Source: Planctomicrobium piriforme (GTDB taxonomy: Bacteria > Planctomycetota > Planctomycetia > Planctomycetales > Planctomycetaceae). Taken from it: DNA of 62,870 nucleotides. Under the pieces are notes generated by a model. It did no database searches. It was given only the letters and a program-made list of their open reading frames with translations, and was not told where the DNA came from. The stretch covers positions 1-62,870 of the forward strand of contig CAMATH010000036.1 in NCBI GenBank assembly GCA_945860955.1. Direction: 5' to 3'. This document shows, in pieces, positions 55,423 to 62,504 of the stretch (positions within the stretch are counted from its first letter, which is position 1; every line of letters starts with the position of its first letter). Made by a program: the position numbers and the translations under genes.

Positions 55423-57657
55423 TCAACGACTTCCCACGACAATTTCGTGACGATCGACCATCGCGTTTTCTCGTGAGGTTCGCGCGAGTTCCTGGCGTTT
55501 CGCGTCGAGAGTCCACTGGGTGACGGTCATTAGGAGTTCGGCGATGTCGTCGGTTCGCGACTCGCCGGTCAGCGGATGCGTGGCCAGAGTTGCTTCTCCC
55601 TTCCGCACAACCATTTCCGAACCCTCGACGGTCCCCCAGAGGCCTTCCCTTTCGCGGTGCGCTCGCAGTGCGGGATGCGACGGATTTATTGAGACGAGAA
55701 TTCCGCGCGGTACGTGGCTCCAGTCATGCGCTCCCCAGAGGGGATCGTCGAGATTGACCACCACGAACCGCGCCCGGTGCTGGGCCCGCGACAACCAGCG
55801 CCACACCATGCTTTGCGTGGGACGGGGCAGAGCCGAGAATTGAGAACTGTCGGCCAGGACCAGCGTGCGCATCCGGTCGAGTCCCAACCCGTGCGTGACC
55901 AGAGACTCGAGATCCGCCGCCAACGCGGCCCGTCGCACCGTGGAATCCAGAACAAGCGTCCGCCAGCGGTCGCCGGGAGACGATGTGTTCGGATGCAAGA
56001 GTCGCGTTCCGACTCGCGTTCGCAGGGGAGTGGACGATCCCATGCGCGCCAAGTCGTTGGTAGCGCTATCCGAGAATCGCTCGGCGACTCGGCTCGCCAA
56101 CCGGTCCCCCACCACAACAACCGCTGGCATGTGTCCGGAACTTCGACTCGGGTATTGCGCCCGCAAGACGGCCCTCGCGACGCGCCCGCTCGCCCCCGCG
56201 CAGATCGGCGGAAGATGAATATACAACGCCGGCTCTTCGTTCACTTCGATCAAGCCACCATTCTGTAATTCCAATGGCAGCGCGATGTCGGTCGCGACCA
56301 GGTCGACCCCCGCGATGTCCAGGCCGATCGCGCCGACCGCCTCCAGCACCGCGTTTCGTGTGTGAGGATGAACCCCCGCCGTCACATCGATCGTCACCCC
56401 TCCCGCGCCAATCCGGGAATCATCGCGCAGTCGGACAACTTCGCCCACTCCAGGAACGGAGTCGGCGTTCAGTCCTTTGGAAGTGAGAGTGGCCAGCTCC
56501 TTCGATCCCAACGTGATCCTTTGGAGCGGCCAGCGAAAGTCTGGGCCGCGCCGAGGGTTGCTGTTCTCCCGTTCGATCAGCGCGGCGATCGTGTGAATAC
56601 CATCCCCCACAATCGCCACTGGCTCGCGGCGAATCGCCGAGACGAGTTCACCCCCAATCACCAGCAGCCGATGCAACGTCCCTTCCAGAAACCGTTCGAC
56701 CAGTACCTGCTCCGATTCCTGTCGGGCGAGATCGTAGGCGACGCGAATCGCAGCCGGGTCACGCAGCCGCAATGAGACGCCGTTGCCGTAGTCGGCGTCG
56801 CGCGGCTTCACCACGACGTCGCCCCCCAGTTCGGCGGCCGCAGTGACGGCGTCGTTGGCGTCCGTGACCGCGCGTCCGGCCGGTATGGGGAGACCCAACC
56901 GCGACCAGATCGATTTCACCAGCAGCTTGTCATTCGCCAGTTGACTGGCGAGCAGGCTCGTTCCACTCGACAACGACAATCGCATCCGCCGTTGTCTGAC
57001 TCCCTCCCCCAACTGGATCACGGATCCCTGGTCGAGTCGGTGCAGGGGGATCTTCCGACGTCGCGCCTCGCGGATCAGGTAGCGGTCGCATTCGAACAGT
57101 GACTGGTTCTCCGCAGCCTCCTGCAAGTCGACGACTTCCCGGGACACCTGTCCCGACTCGCCGTTCGCGATCCGCCGAATGATCCGCAGGGCGCCTCGCA
57201 GTGTTTCCTCGGCGACGGGGTGCGACTCGCATTCGAGGGCCAGAACCGACTGGTCGGCGGCATTGGGTTGGCGGTGAATCGCTTCTGAATGCGACCACGA
57301 TCGCGCCCGAAACCCGGTTGCCTGAAGCTGCAGCTCGGCGGCCAGCCCCACCAGCCAGCCCAACGGATCAAACTGCGCCACCACACCGCGCAACCGTTCC
57401 ATGGCCCCTTGTCGATCTGGTGGACATTCCACATCCTCCCATTCCTTCAGCAACCGGTCCGACTCCAAAGGGGGAGAAATCGATCGCGCCGCCAGTCGGG
57501 ATTCCACCACCGGCCGTAACGACCAGCAATTCAAACTTTCGAGCCGTCGAAACACCAGCATGACGCGATCCAGTCCGTCCATCCCACAAATCGCAGCCCC
57601 CAGATCCCCTGATCCAGGCAACCCACGAACCGTGTTCAATAGGTACTCGACAACCAC
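55423..57657 (-). CDS. Cyanophycin-synthetase-like ATP-grasp protein with dead Mur-ligase half
   Basis: The product is 744 residues, GTG start (uncertain). Residues 150-235 match the CphA segment before the ATP-grasp (IQLGEGVRQRRMRLSLS, then TSLLASQLANDKLLVK). Residues 235-500 form the ATP-grasp domain, with VVVKPRDADYGNGVSL, EGTLHRLLVIGGELVSAIRR and GGLIEVNEEPALYIH intact. Residues 510-715 align with the Mur-ligase half, but the P-loop (normally GTNGKTT) reads VGDRLASR at 517-523. LGLDRMRTLVLADSS and VVVNLDDPL are still visible. Probably makes a peptide with one active site only, like CphA2. Confidence 0.78.
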   Translation of the reverse strand: MVVEYLLNTVRGLPGSGDLGAAICGMDGLDRVMLVFRRLESLNCWSLRPVVESRLAARSISPPLESDRLLKEWEDVECPPDRQGAMERLRGVVAQFDPLGWLVGLAAELQLQATGFRARSWSHSEAIHRQPNAADQSVLALECESHPVAEETLRGALRIIRRIANGESGQVSREVVDLQEAAENQSLFECDRYLIREARRRKIPLHRLDQGSVIQLGEGVRQRRMRLSLSSGTSLLASQLANDKLLVKSIWSRLGLPIPAGRAVTDANDAVTAAAELGGDVVVKPRDADYGNGVSLRLRDPAAIRVAYDLARQESEQVLVERFLEGTLHRLLVIGGELVSAIRREPVAIVGDGIHTIAALIERENSNPRRGPDFRWPLQRITLGSKELATLTSKGLNADSVPGVGEVVRLRDDSRIGAGGVTIDVTAGVHPHTRNAVLEAVGAIGLDIAGVDLVATDIALPLELQNGGLIEVNEEPALYIHLPPICAGASGRVARAVLRAQYPSRSSGHMPAVVVVGDRLASRVAERFSDSATNDLARMGSSTPLRTRVGTRLLHPNTSSPGDRWRTLVLDSTVRRAALAADLESLVTHGLGLDRMRTLVLADSSQFSALPRPTQSMVWRWLSRAQHRARFVVVNLDDPLWGAHDWSHVPRGILVSINPSHPALRAHREREGLWGTVEGSEMVVRKGEATLATHPLTGESRTDDIAELLMTVTQWTLDAKRQELARTSRENAMVDRHEIVVGSR

Positions 57658-57719: not shown

Positions 57720-58301
57720 ATGCCCCCCGCCGACCCGTCCGATTCCGTGACGTTGTGGATCTCGCACCTGAAAGCGGGCGACGCGGCGGCCGCCGACCAA
57801 TTGTGGCACCGCTATTTTCAGCGACTGGTCGGACTGGCACGAACCCGTTTGGGAAACTCCCCCAAAGGGATGTCTGACGAGGAAGACGTGGCGCTCAGCG
57901 CGTTCAAGAGTCTCTGCATGGGGGCCGCCGAGGGACGGTTTCCGCAACTCAGTGACCGGGGCAACTTGTGGCCGCTCCTGGCCGTCTTGACCGCGCACAA
58001 AGCGCTCGACTTGCGGAAGAGCGAGACCCGGCAGAAACGGGGTGGAGGTTTGCGCGATGGTGAGATCGACCCGGGGGAATTGCTGTCGCGCGAGCCCAGC
58101 CCCGAGTTCGCCGCCAGCATGGCGGATGAATGCCGGTCGTTGCTCGATCGGCTCGAGCCGGAACTGCGGAACATCGCTCTTGGAAAACTGGAAGGCGAAT
58201 CCAACGCCGACCTCGCGACCAAACTGGGATGCGGGGTACGGACCATCGAACGCCGGTTGGAGTTGATTCGGCGAATCTGGAATGACACGCTGTTGTCATG
58301 A
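57720..58301 (+). CDS. ECF-type RNA polymerase sigma factor (coupled to a kinase)
   Basis: The product is 193 residues. VTLWISHLKAGDAAAADQLWHRYFQRLVGLAR (region 2), DEEDVALSAFKSLCMGAAEG, WPLLAVLTAHKALDLRKSE and the HTH region LEGESNADLATKLGCGVRTIERRLELIRRIW are typical of the planctomycete ECF group. The stop overlaps the start of the kinase gene (ATGA at 58298-58301), which suggests a joint signal pathway. Confidence 0.9.
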   Translation: MPPADPSDSVTLWISHLKAGDAAAADQLWHRYFQRLVGLARTRLGNSPKGMSDEEDVALSAFKSLCMGAAEGRFPQLSDRGNLWPLLAVLTAHKALDLRKSETRQKRGGGLRDGEIDPGELLSREPSPEFAASMADECRSLLDRLEPELRNIALGKLEGESNADLATKLGCGVRTIERRLELIRRIWNDTLLS

Positions 58302-60619
58302 TTCCTCCAGAGCCTGTGGATCCGCGTGAAGACCGGGAACTGTCGACGGACGAGTTCCGCCGGATCGACGACTGCTGCGCCCGATACGAGCGTGCGTGCA
58401 TTTCCGAATCCCCACGATCGATCGAGTCTGTCCTGGAGGGCTGGCAGGGAAAGTCCCGGCGGGCGCTGCTCCGGGAGTTGCTCGCGATCGACATCGAACA
58501 CCGCGAAGCGTCGGGAGAGACGATCGAAGCGGCCGCGCTGCGGGATCGATTCCCGGAAGATGGCGACCTGGTGGAACTGGTGATCCGTGAGGCCAGTCAA
58601 TCGGGGCCAGACCGGCGTCAGCCAGCAGCGTCACCCGCCTCCCTGGAGAATCCGTTCATTCCGGAATTTCTGCGAGAGCATCCGCGTTATCGCCTCTTGC
58701 GTCGGCTGGCAACGGGGGGAATGGGGGATGTCTGGCTCGCCGAGCATGCCGTTCTCGGCCGCAAGGTCGCTATCAAGGTGATTAAGGGGGAACTTCTCTC
58801 CGACGCGGAGGCCCGGGGGAGGTTTCTGCGTGAGGCGCAAACGGCGGCCCGGCTCAGTCATCCCAACGTGGTTACGATCTTTGATGCCGAGGCCCAAGAG
58901 GCGTCCCCCTTTCTGGTGATGGAATACCTGGAGGGATCGGATCTCGCCCAGATCGTCCGGACAAAGGGGCCACTCACCGTTTCTGAAGCGTGTGATGCGA
59001 TACAACAGGGGGCGCGGGGACTGGCGGCCGCCCACGCGACGGGGCTGGTGCATCGGGATCTGTCCCCCCGCAATCTGCTGCGAACCCCGAACGGCACGGT
59101 CAAACTGCTCGATTTCGGTCTCGCGTCGGTTTCGAATGGCGCAGCGCGATTTCCTGAAAGTGAAGCGGGTTCACTGATTGGGAGCGCCGATTTCATGGCC
59201 CCCGAACAGGCGCTCGACCCCGCCACTTCGGATGTGCGGTCCGACCTCTATTCGTTGGGCTGCGTGTTGTTTTACCTGTTAACGGGACAACCTCCGTTTC
59301 CCCGGGCGACCCTGGCGGAACGACTGCTGGCGCACGCCTCGGCACCGCTTCCCGATCCGCGGAGACTTCGCAGTGAGATCCCCTCGCAACTCGCCCTGCT
59401 GATCGAGCGACTGCTTGCGAAGGCGCCCGCCGACCGGGTGGCGACGCCCGACGAACTGGCGACGCTGCTGGAGCCGTTTTGTGGCACCGGACCGAAGTCG
59501 CGCGCCGCGCCGAACGCGCCGGTTCCCTGGCGACCGACGCGTCGCACACTTCTGGTGACGCTGGGGGGGATTGTTGTTTTGGGATCGGTGTGGGGGCTTT
59601 GGAATTCGGAGCGGTTCAACCCGTCCCGCGGCAAGCCCGATCCCGGCGAGCGGATTCTACAGGAGTCGCGGTTGCTGTTGGCGCAGCGTCAGGAATCGCA
59701 GACGCGGACGGCGATCGCACGGTTGAATCACTTGCTGGACTCTCACCCCGACTCCGCCGCGGGGCATGCGCAGCTCGCCGAGGCGTGGAACATTCTGGGG
59801 GATTACGGCTGGGAAGAGGCGGACGAGTGTTTCCCGAACGCGATTCGCTCGGCGACCAGGGCGCTGGAACTCGATCCGGATCTGGCGACGGCGCATTTGG
59901 CCCTCGCCTTCGCGTGGCACACGTACGACTGTGACTGGGAACGGGCGAGTCAGGAATACCAGCGGGCGATTGAACTCGACGACCAGCAGCCGGCGGCGCA
60001 TCACTGGTACGCCTGGCTGTTGGCGCAACGGCAACAGTTTGACGCGGCCCGGGACGAGATGCGCATCGCGCATGAACTGGCACCGTTTGATCTGATCGTG
60101 ATGAACAATGTGGGGAAGATCGAGTACTTCAGCCGGCGGTTCACCGAAGCGGCTCAATGGCACCGGCAGGCTCTCGATCTCGATCCCGACTTTCGCAAGG
60201 CGCATCTCGACCTGGGATACACGCTGGTGGAACTGGGGGACATCGATGCGGCGCTCGACCAGTTGGAAAAGGCGACCGGACTCTCGACGGGAAACGACGA
60301 CATCCTGGCGGCGAAGGCGTACGTGCTGGCGCGATCGGGCGCGACCGAGTCCGCCCGCGCATTACTCAAGGAGCTGGAACCCGAGGCCGACTCGCAACGG
60401 CTGGCGCTGGAGATGGCCCGAGTGTATTCCGCGTTGCGGGATGCCGACGACGCGGTTCACTGGCTGCGGCGGGCGTTTCTGCGCAAGTCCCCAGGACGCG
60501 GCAGCCTACTGATCGATCCCCGGTGGGATCTGCTCCGCGACGACCCACGGTTTCAGGAACTGGAACGGCAGGTGTCGGAGGGCACCAGCGGATCCAACTC
60601 AGGATCCACGAAGAGATAA
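58298..60619 (+). CDS. Ser/Thr protein kinase with membrane helix and TPR domain
   Basis: The product is 773 residues. The kinase (about 125-395) has LATGGMGDVWLAEHAV, VAIKVIKG, the catalytic loop HRDLSPRNLL (Lys of HRDLKPxN replaced by Ser), LLDFGLAS and GSADFMAPEQA. A helix (LLVTLGGIVVLGSVWGLW) near 415-432 is followed by TPR repeats to about residue 690. It is translationally coupled to the ECF sigma and probably controls its activity. Confidence 0.9.
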   Translation: MIPPEPVDPREDRELSTDEFRRIDDCCARYERACISESPRSIESVLEGWQGKSRRALLRELLAIDIEHREASGETIEAAALRDRFPEDGDLVELVIREASQSGPDRRQPAASPASLENPFIPEFLREHPRYRLLRRLATGGMGDVWLAEHAVLGRKVAIKVIKGELLSDAEARGRFLREAQTAARLSHPNVVTIFDAEAQEASPFLVMEYLEGSDLAQIVRTKGPLTVSEACDAIQQGARGLAAAHATGLVHRDLSPRNLLRTPNGTVKLLDFGLASVSNGAARFPESEAGSLIGSADFMAPEQALDPATSDVRSDLYSLGCVLFYLLTGQPPFPRATLAERLLAHASAPLPDPRRLRSEIPSQLALLIERLLAKAPADRVATPDELATLLEPFCGTGPKSRAAPNAPVPWRPTRRTLLVTLGGIVVLGSVWGLWNSERFNPSRGKPDPGERILQESRLLLAQRQESQTRTAIARLNHLLDSHPDSAAGHAQLAEAWNILGDYGWEEADECFPNAIRSATRALELDPDLATAHLALAFAWHTYDCDWERASQEYQRAIELDDQQPAAHHWYAWLLAQRQQFDAARDEMRIAHELAPFDLIVMNNVGKIEYFSRRFTEAAQWHRQALDLDPDFRKAHLDLGYTLVELGDIDAALDQLEKATGLSTGNDDILAAKAYVLARSGATESARALLKELEPEADSQRLALEMARVYSALRDADDAVHWLRRAFLRKSPGRGSLLIDPRWDLLRDDPRFQELERQVSEGTSGSNSGSTKR

Positions 60620-61071: not shown

Positions 61072-62274
61072 TCACTCCGCCACATGCCAGATCTGCACCT
61101 CGCCCCGACTCTTGGCGGGGTCGGGATCCCACGCGCCTGCGCCCAGCACAACTCGGCGGCCATCGACGCTGAACGCGGCCGCGGTAATCGGTTGTCCGGC
61201 GTCGATGCGGGCGATTTCCGACCCGAAGGCGGCCGACCGCGAATCGGCATCCCACAGGCGGGCAGTCCCGTCATCGGCCCCCGTGAGCATCCACCGGCCG
61301 TCAGGCGAAAACGATGCGGCCCGGATCCAGCCCGTGTGCCCTTGGAGCGTGCGGAGCGGCTTGCCGTGCGTCTTCGAGTTTGGATCGGCATCCCACAGGC
61401 GGGCGGTGTTGTCACCGGGCGCAGTGAGCAGCCATCGGCCGTCGGGCGACATCGATGCTGCAAGCACCGTGCGCTTCCCGACGTCAATGCGGGGGAGTTC
61501 CTGCCCGAATGTGGCCGACTGCGAGTCGGCATCCCACAGGCGGGCAGTGCTGTCGTTGCTCGCGGTAAGCATGCGCCGGCCGTCGGGAGAGAACAACGCG
61601 ACGAGCACCGGGAGCGTGTGTCCTTGGAGCGTGCGGAGCTGCTGCCCGTACGTCTTGGAGCGTGGGTCGGCATCCCACAGGCGGGCGGTGTTGTCGCGGC
61701 TACCCGTGAGTACCCGCCGGCCGTCGGGCGAGAAGGACGCGGCATATACCCATTCTGTGTGCCCTTGGAGCGTGATGAGCAGCTTGCCGTAGGTCTTGGA
61801 GTTTGGGTCGGCATCCCAAAGGCGGGCGGTGTTGTCCACGCTGCCCGTGAGCACCCGCCGGCCGTCGCGAGAGAACGATGCGGCACACACCGATTCTGTG
61901 TGCCCTTGGAGCGTGCGGAGCAGCGTGCCGTAAGTCTGGGAGTTCGAGTCGGCGTCCCACAGCCGCGCCGTCTTGTCATCGCTCCCAGTGATCACCCGCA
62001 GGCCGTCGGGCGAGAACGATGCGTCAGTCGGATAGCTCGTTTGTCCTTCGAGCGTGAGGAGCTTGCGCGGCTGGGCGAGAAGACGCGGTAGCAGCGCATC
62101 TACCCGAACTTTGATCTGCGCATCGGCTGCGACCGAGGGCGACGTGGTTGGCGTGGATTGCTGCGCGCGCGTGCATCGAGGAGCCACCGTAACGAAAAGG
62201 CAAATGGACAGAAACAACACTGATATCCAAGAAGCAGTTTTTCGAGCCATCATTGACAGAGCAATACAGATCAT
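61072..62274 (-). CDS. Secreted seven-bladed WD40 protein
   Basis: From ATG 62274 the product is 400 residues; ATGs at 62253 and 62250 are possible starts. A signal segment (ASWISVLFLSICLFVTVA) precedes seven units of the type AASFSPDGRRVLTGSRDNTARLWDAD, joined by unusual linkers (PNSKTYGKLLITLQGHT). The units are very alike at DNA level, so they arose by recent internal duplication or conversion. It is probably a periplasmic binding propeller. The open frame extending to 62499 runs through tRNA sequence and is not coding. Confidence 0.82.
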   Translation of the reverse strand: MICIALSMMARKTASWISVLFLSICLFVTVAPRCTRAQQSTPTTSPSVAADAQIKVRVDALLPRLLAQPRKLLTLEGQTSYPTDASFSPDGLRVITGSDDKTARLWDADSNSQTYGTLLRTLQGHTESVCAASFSRDGRRVLTGSVDNTARLWDADPNSKTYGKLLITLQGHTEWVYAASFSPDGRRVLTGSRDNTARLWDADPRSKTYGQQLRTLQGHTLPVLVALFSPDGRRMLTASNDSTARLWDADSQSATFGQELPRIDVGKRTVLAASMSPDGRWLLTAPGDNTARLWDADPNSKTHGKPLRTLQGHTGWIRAASFSPDGRWMLTGADDGTARLWDADSRSAAFGSEIARIDAGQPITAAAFSVDGRRVVLGAGAWDPDPAKSRGEVQIWHVAE

Positions 62275-62420
62275 ATGAAGTTTTCGCGTTGGAAAGCATG
62301 TCCGGAATTGGCTGAATTCCCTTGCGAAAAGGATATGTCGTCCGTACACGAGCTTCAAAGGCATCTTTCCGCAAGTTCCAGCGCCGTGTTGCCCCCGATC
62401 CCACCCTAACCCACAGGAAC

Positions 62421-62455
62421 ACAAACGCCCCCGAGCGTGACTCGAGGGCGTTTGT
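62421..62455 (-). terminator. Hairpin after the tRNA-Pro fragment
   Basis: A perfect 10-bp stem (ACAAACGCCC at 62421-62430 with GGGCGTTTGT at 62446-62455) with a further 4-bp inner stem lies 8 bp beyond the tRNA 3' end. It is likely the original tRNA terminator, though no T-run follows. Confidence 0.6.
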
Positions 62456-62462
62456 ACTCTAG

Positions 62463-62504
62463 TCGGGACGGCGGGATTTGAACCCACGACCTCTTGCACC
62501 CCAA
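62463..62504 (-). tRNA. tRNA-Pro(GGG), 3' fragment only
   Basis: On the minus strand, the anticodon loop TTGGGGT (anticodon GGG), 3' anticodon stem GCAAG, variable AGGTC, T arm GTGGG-TTCAAAT-CCCGC, acceptor strand CGTCCCG and discriminator A are complete. The expected 5' anticodon stem (CTTGC) and everything before it are absent; the sequence leaves tRNA-like form right at the loop. This is the structure left by integration at a tRNA. Confidence 0.82.

Follow-up and report, generated by a model that had tools for sequence, protein, structure and literature searches.

In CphA1 (cyanophycin synthetase 1), as described in PMC9427784 and PMC9262961, an ATP-grasp (G) site adds aspartate, a Mur-ligase (M) site adds arginine and an N-domain peptidase, whose motif PMC9262961 defines as Cx19HxxEH, makes primers. 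For TeCphA1, PMC9427784 assigns K220, K261, D431 and E450 to the binding of ATP and Mg, R309 to holding the chain end and N394, R323 and R458 to holding the incoming aspartate, the space of which is bordered by S396; according to the same source alanine mutants of N394, R323 and R458 impair the enzyme, and the Mlid comprises residues 724-876. The architecture of CphA2 is described as having lost the P-loop of the M domain and the Mlid (PMC9427784) as well as the N-domain motif Cx19HxxEH (PMC9262961).

A related ATP-grasp domain is found in GshF, the bifunctional glutathione synthetase (3ln6/3ln7). CphA2, with structures solved from Gloeothece (7ta5) and Stanieria (8fxh/8fxi), was reportedly the subject of a study by Klemke in 2016. 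In Betaproteobacteria and planctomycetes CphA has a tandem partner, CphA'; it adjoins CphA, keeps Cx19HxxEH (60/60), mostly has H267 and carries G323, and many of these short proteins (median 736.5 aa, 60 frames) have lost M-site residues. The gene considered here, from a stretch of 62,870 nucleotides that was analysed as a whole (the window), encodes a CphA relative that shares the loss of M-site residues, but it is unlike CphA' in that it stands alone, has lost the N motif and reads R323 and Y267.

Gene, domains and lost catalytic sites

The open reading frame list places the gene at 55423-57657 on the minus strand, with 744 codons counted from a GTG start. In comparison with the orthologue from the Planctomycetota isolate LacPavin (G002), which matches the window protein at 91%, the first 32 codons are alike as DNA and frame-shifted as protein, and codon 33 is ATG in both genes; this combination of an upstream part that is DNA-like but out of frame with a common ATG leads us to propose that the real start is probably the ATG at 57561, giving a protein of about 712 aa. 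An AlphaFold2 model of the window protein (64-sequence alignment, mean pLDDT 87.3, pTM 0.85) also fits this start, as residues 1-29 have pLDDT <50 and residue 1 of CphA1 aligns to model residues 29-31, for TeCphA1 and SuCphA1 alike. The features are collected in Table 1.

Table 1. Coordinates of the gene and of its domains and motifs in the window
Feature	Coordinates	Strand	Remark
CphA-like one-site ligase, likely CDS	55423..57561	-	ATG start; mechanical frame to 57657 with GTG
N domain, residues 33-185	57103..57561	-	peptidase motif Cx19HxxEH absent; WLVGL at HxxEH
G domain (ATP-grasp), residues 186-500	56158..57102	-	sole site with ATP/Mg residues; dN/dS 0.127 versus orthologue
Lid motif KPRDADYGNG, residues 284-293	56779..56808	-	clade-specific D289, Y290, N292
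R415-I-G417 at TeCphA1 N394/S396 (aspartate-recognition loop)	56407..56415	-	sequence comparison
Y479 at TeCphA1 R458 position	56221..56223	-	F/Y in two CphA2, Y in GshF compared
Pseudo Mur-ligase core, residues 501-719	55501..56157	-	predicted Mcore-like fold, without Mlid
Degenerate P-loop VGDRLASR, residues 516-523	56089..56112	-	replaces TGTNGKTT

The window protein matches the NCBIfam models of cyanophycin synthetase PRK14016 (E 2.7e-114, 383 bits, well short of the curated cut-off of 877) and TIGR02068 (E 2.8e-98, 330 bits, the curated cut-off of 850 not being reached). Its PDB matches are CphA1 chains from 2e-71 (7lgm) to 4e-64, CphA2 8fxh at 4.3e-41 and GshF 3ln7 at 1.2e-40, so that the protein is less similar to CphA2 than to CphA1; the NCBIfam and PDB matches to GshF span the ATP-grasp half only. 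As judged by sequence comparison, the homology to CphA extends through N, G and M and is far beyond chance. Residues 31-719 of the model align with residues 1-708 of CphA1 (Z 37.7, rmsd 4.0, 666 aligned), and CphA1 is the best sequence match and, among the structures ranked by Foldseek that the fold comparison covers, also the best fold match. As this alignment ends at CphA1 708, before the Mlid, the Mlid is absent from the window protein, the Mcore of which is predicted at high confidence.

The same N-G-M architecture, the G fold and the ATP/Mg residues are shared with CphA1 (TeCphA1 7wac/7wae, SuCphA1 7lg5, AbCphA1 7lgm), whereas the N motif, the M-domain P-loop, K499, E558, the DH pair and the Mlid of CphA1 are all missing. 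At the M site (TeCphA1 numbers) K499 is replaced by A, the Mg ligand E558 by A and the DH pair by SA, and the P-loop reads V516-G-D-R-L-A-S-R523 where CphA1 has TGTNGKTT. The P-loop loss claimed in the first-pass annotation is thus present, and its description of a cyanophycin-synthetase-like enzyme with a dead Mur half agrees with the CphA homology and the lost M-site residues. With the catalytic residues of N and M gone from the sequence, G is the only working-type site left of three.

The ATP-grasp pocket and its clade

At the G-site positions of TeCphA1 the window protein reads Q215, K220, K261, Y267, R309, R323, R394, G396, D431, E450 and Y458. The view that the ATP-grasp half keeps its motifs therefore stands for K220, K261, R309, D431 and E450 and fails for H267, N394, S396 and R458; in the same way the loss of ATP-grasp active residues, which had been named as evidence against the first-pass reading, applies to the latter four, and the ATP/Mg residues stay. 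Three of the four aspartate positions (N394, S396 and R458) are replaced, with only R323 retained, and E215 is replaced as well, at a position that varies among the CphA of this group. His267 is important in TeCphA1. The corresponding position, Y290 of the lid motif, is Phe in four clade members and Gln in many planctomycete and Betaproteobacteria CphA-type proteins, and a change at 267 alone is therefore weak evidence.

Relatives were sought in 170 genomes of the family, with five candidates scored per genome at E <= 1e-60. Among the 54 genomes with a match, nine proteins have Y or F at 267, namely those of the window, G002, G344, G059, G394 and four of genus g56; a tenth member, from an Akkermansiaceae metagenome-assembled genome (MAG; L160), comes from a scan of named genomes, in which the best 80 of 398 relatives were retained. 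The clade is an old one, with members in five planctomycete genera plus this one MAG. All ten have an open frame, the lid DxD[YF]xNG and K220, K261, R309, D431 and E450, and none has GxxGK[TS] at the M P-loop region; the corresponding lid in CphA-type proteins reads, for example, DGNHGRG, DGNQGRG or DANHGRG. E558 is retained in 2/9 clade members, and R323 is replaced by L in G059. Positions 394/396/458 vary across the clade (RG/Y, FT/C, FS/A, QC/Y, CW/L, YK/A), L105 reading CW/R and so retaining R458, and G059 (L006) retaining S396. In a G-domain tree the nine members, with L160 left out, form one clade with support 100/99, as do the eight rows, including L160, of a second tree built without 11 key columns (again 100/99). 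The check proposed in the first-pass annotation, a search of planctomycete genomes for the same P-loop loss, together with the scan of named genomes yielded the 91% orthologue and eight further members, all without the P-loop. It is the changed G pocket, not the P-loop loss, that distinguishes the clade.

Between the window gene and its orthologue in G002, dN/dS is 0.236 overall, 0.216 in N, 0.241 in M and 0.35 in the tail, with the lowest value in G, and three pairs within genus g56 give 0.041-0.083 for G, 0.165-0.257 for N and 0.29-0.34 for M, domain borders being approximate in these pairs. The two CphA genes of the window's own genome have overall values of 0.058 and 0.053 (M 0.082 and 0.043) in comparison with their incomplete G002 counterparts, and the one-site gene as a whole evolves faster than these. 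These values argue at the sequence level that the gene is retained: purifying selection is strong on G, taken to be the working part, and looser on M. Recent decay, which a near-identical homologue with an intact P-loop would have signified, was considered and set aside on account of this constraint and as no such homologue is present among the matches listed.

Genomic setting, origin and P-loop loss across the family

Other CphA-like frames occur in all ten genomes that carry the gene, those of G425 and G429 being known as matches alone. The window's contig itself holds no other match to CphA and none to the cyanophycinase model, in agreement with the earlier statement that neither gene is nearby. 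Elsewhere in the same genome contig C26 carries a tandem of two CphA frames, and the cyanophycinase model matches six stretches, on C47, C72, C176 and C20, three of which are over the cut-off. In the tandem pair (CphA/CphA', L045) both P-loops are intact and CphA has Q at 267. On C47 and C72 (L062-L064, L066) two cyanophycinase-model stretches fall within a single frame of about 600 aa, and such frames probably encode fused double S51 domains. The cyanophycinase model is over its cut-off in 11/12 genomes tested. It also passes in two genomes of the same genus that yielded no copy of the gene (one of these is 83% complete), and it has zero matches in the L160 genome. A gene that arose by duplication would in part be expected to occur together with CphA genes.

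A gene for an ECF sigma factor and, after it, one for a TPR-repeat protein kinase (57720-60619) are divergent from the window gene, an arrangement also present in G002; an aldo/keto reductase gene is convergent with it. No conserved operon partner was found, and an attempt to read the function from the neighbourhood was abandoned, as the neighbours are unrelated across clade lineages and give no hint. Two frames without a Pfam match next to L053 are probably antisense noise. Further along the window (61072-62499, minus strand) a frame with many WD40-like repeats (TARLWDAD) was noticed by eye.

CphA2, named in the first-pass annotation as the closest precedent, holds this place with respect to architecture, in that G is the sole site and the P-loop of M, the Mlid and the N motif are all lost. 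With respect to the pocket it does not, as both solved CphA2 have K267, N394, S396 and F/Y458, of which the window protein matches one in four (458). In the second G-domain tree CphA2 falls in a group with CphA1 of cyanobacteria; a 100/100 branch separates this group from the clade, which stands with planctomycete and betaproteobacterial CphA. AU tests of a joint clade with CphA2, with CphA2 present as fragments only, do not reject it (p 0.176 and 0.214). Descent from cyanobacterial CphA2 is not favoured by the trees, and an origin independent of CphA2 appears likely. The first G-domain tree suggests that the clade arose inside planctomycete CphA1; a position outside planctomycete CphA1 has a log-likelihood 1.35 higher (AU p 0.548) and fits equally well.

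In a 69-row tree scored with the strict pattern GxNGK[TS], and with CphA2 entered as lost from the literature, the P-loop is lost in 33 rows and intact in 36, with at least 8 changes. By these sequence counts loss of the P-loop is frequent among family members and less rare than had been assumed. A second planctomycete group without P-loop comprises 20 frames with G323/D394 (L128-L143, L035, L036, L038, L040), 0/20 having GxxGK[TS]; its members are mostly about 700 aa, with H267 and T396, and their genomes often also hold a full-length CphA. Two further loci (L050 and L051, in G077 and G090) have neighbouring CphA-like genes with complementary losses, the first gene with an intact G pocket and a broken M P-loop (GGGAGRG, GTRGRN) and the second with an intact M P-loop and an ATP-grasp half that is broken or deleted, and in G042 (L052) a frame with an intact M P-loop misses much of the ATP-grasp half. 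The literature outside subscription journals, as far as its text was accessible, yielded no treatment of P-loop-less planctomycete CphA.

Among the best 80 of 398 relatives, a sample that is not random, since its loci were selected for their resemblance to the clade of the window protein, 58 loci pair a CphA (R323, R458) with a CphA' (G323), frames interrupted by a contig end being left out of the counts. In these tandem loci the strict N motif is absent from CphA (58/58) and present in CphA' (58/58), GxxGK[TS] is kept in CphA (56/58) and absent from CphA' in 31/58, the strict pattern GxNGK[TS] counting more as lost, and E558 or the DH pair is missing in CphA' (50/58). CphA and CphA' in tandem thus look, on sequence, as if they divide the sites between them. 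Planctomycete frames outside the named loci speak against a general rule of site sharing, as GxxGK[TS] is found in 14/16 and the DH pair in 12/16 frames of the CphA' type, and the N motif in 34/54 of the CphA type. On a division of sites in CphA/CphA' pairs nothing was found in the accessible literature, which covers non-subscription journals. PMC10206079 reports a recognised cyanophycinase in only 2.8% of 903 betaproteobacterial CphA1 genomes, and according to PMC8560796, citing Adames 2013, the Ralstonia eutropha genes yielded no cyanophycin.

Predicted function and rival readings

The reading to which we give somewhat better than even credence is that of a CphA-derived one-site ligase with a changed amine substrate, possibly beta-Asp-Arg. 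In such an enzyme the N domain, which in CphA is a peptidase that makes primers, and the Mur domain, which in CphA adds arginine, would remain as scaffold. By analogy with the chemistry of CphA and of ATP-grasp enzymes, the G site would activate a peptide chain, presumably cyanophycin-like, by forming an acyl phosphate at its C-terminal carboxylate, which the amine would then attack and so be joined to the chain. The amine may be beta-Asp-Arg, as in CphA2, or, as a guess, another amino compound. As most of the residues that hold free aspartate are gone and a new conserved lid motif has taken shape, it is probably not free aspartate. The variable positions 394/396/458 suggest that the amine used may differ between lineages; the same variation could also mean a relaxed pocket, and since tandem CphA' also differ in the pocket (G323, L458), pocket changes alone are not proof of a new substrate. 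A more far-reaching form of this proposal, a new family on the CphA framework in which one ATP-grasp site builds, caps or modifies a peptide polymer with a non-aspartate amine, is put forward tentatively, and the new peptide polymer considered in the first-pass annotation is likewise possible.

A strict analogue of CphA2, re-polymerising beta-Asp-Arg dipeptides released by cyanophycinase, would account for the shared losses (P-loop of M and Mlid, PMC9427784; N motif, PMC9262961), for Y at 458 as in 8fxh, and for the other CphA-like genes and, in 11/12 genomes, the cyanophycinase over the cut-off, and the AU tests leave a joint clade unrejected (p 0.176, 0.214). We nevertheless regard it as rather unlikely, as N394, S396 and K267 of CphA2 are R, G and Y in the window protein, a 100/100 branch parts the clade from CphA2 in the G-domain tree, and the L160 genome lacks a cyanophycinase match where two same-genus genomes have cyanophycinase and lack the gene. 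That two of three sites are dead, that the pocket varies between lineages and that CphA-like genes are present in 10/10 genomes would also suit a non-catalytic or weakly catalytic partner that regulates CphA1 in mixed oligomers; a pure scaffold needs neither the ATP/Mg residues nor the lid motif, both of which are kept in a G domain that is the most constrained part, and this role appears improbable.

Two further readings carry little weight. A small-peptide ligase of the glutathione-synthetase type, without a link to cyanophycin, is brought to mind by the tyrosines at 267 and 458, which the compared GshF shares (GshF is given in PMC9427784 as Tyr/Phe and Met/Tyr), and is very improbable. This GshF has L215, Y267, N394, S396 and Y458, and the window protein is without N394 and S396; it has the N and M domains and, in the Pfam search, lacks the GshA (glutamate-cysteine ligase) domain, so that its three-domain architecture is that of CphA; CphA1 (2e-71) is closer in sequence than GshF (1.2e-40), and CphA-like genes occur in all ten genomes. 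A decaying pseudogene, to which the loss of two catalytic sites and a dN/dS of 0.24 against 0.05-0.06 for the genome's two CphA genes might point, is hardly credible in view of an open frame in 10/10 members, dN/dS <=0.35 in every part of the gene and the occurrence of members in five planctomycete genera and an Akkermansiaceae MAG.

One-site CphA forms occur also outside cyanobacteria, perhaps by repeated origin, so that a 'cyanophycin synthetase' annotation would mislead for this protein. Cyanophycin-type polymers store nitrogen and are of interest as candidate biomaterials, and only a few known enzymes could alter their chemistry; the conserved one-site relative of CphA described here, in which the substrate pocket has been rebuilt, offers a direct starting point in the search for a new activity.
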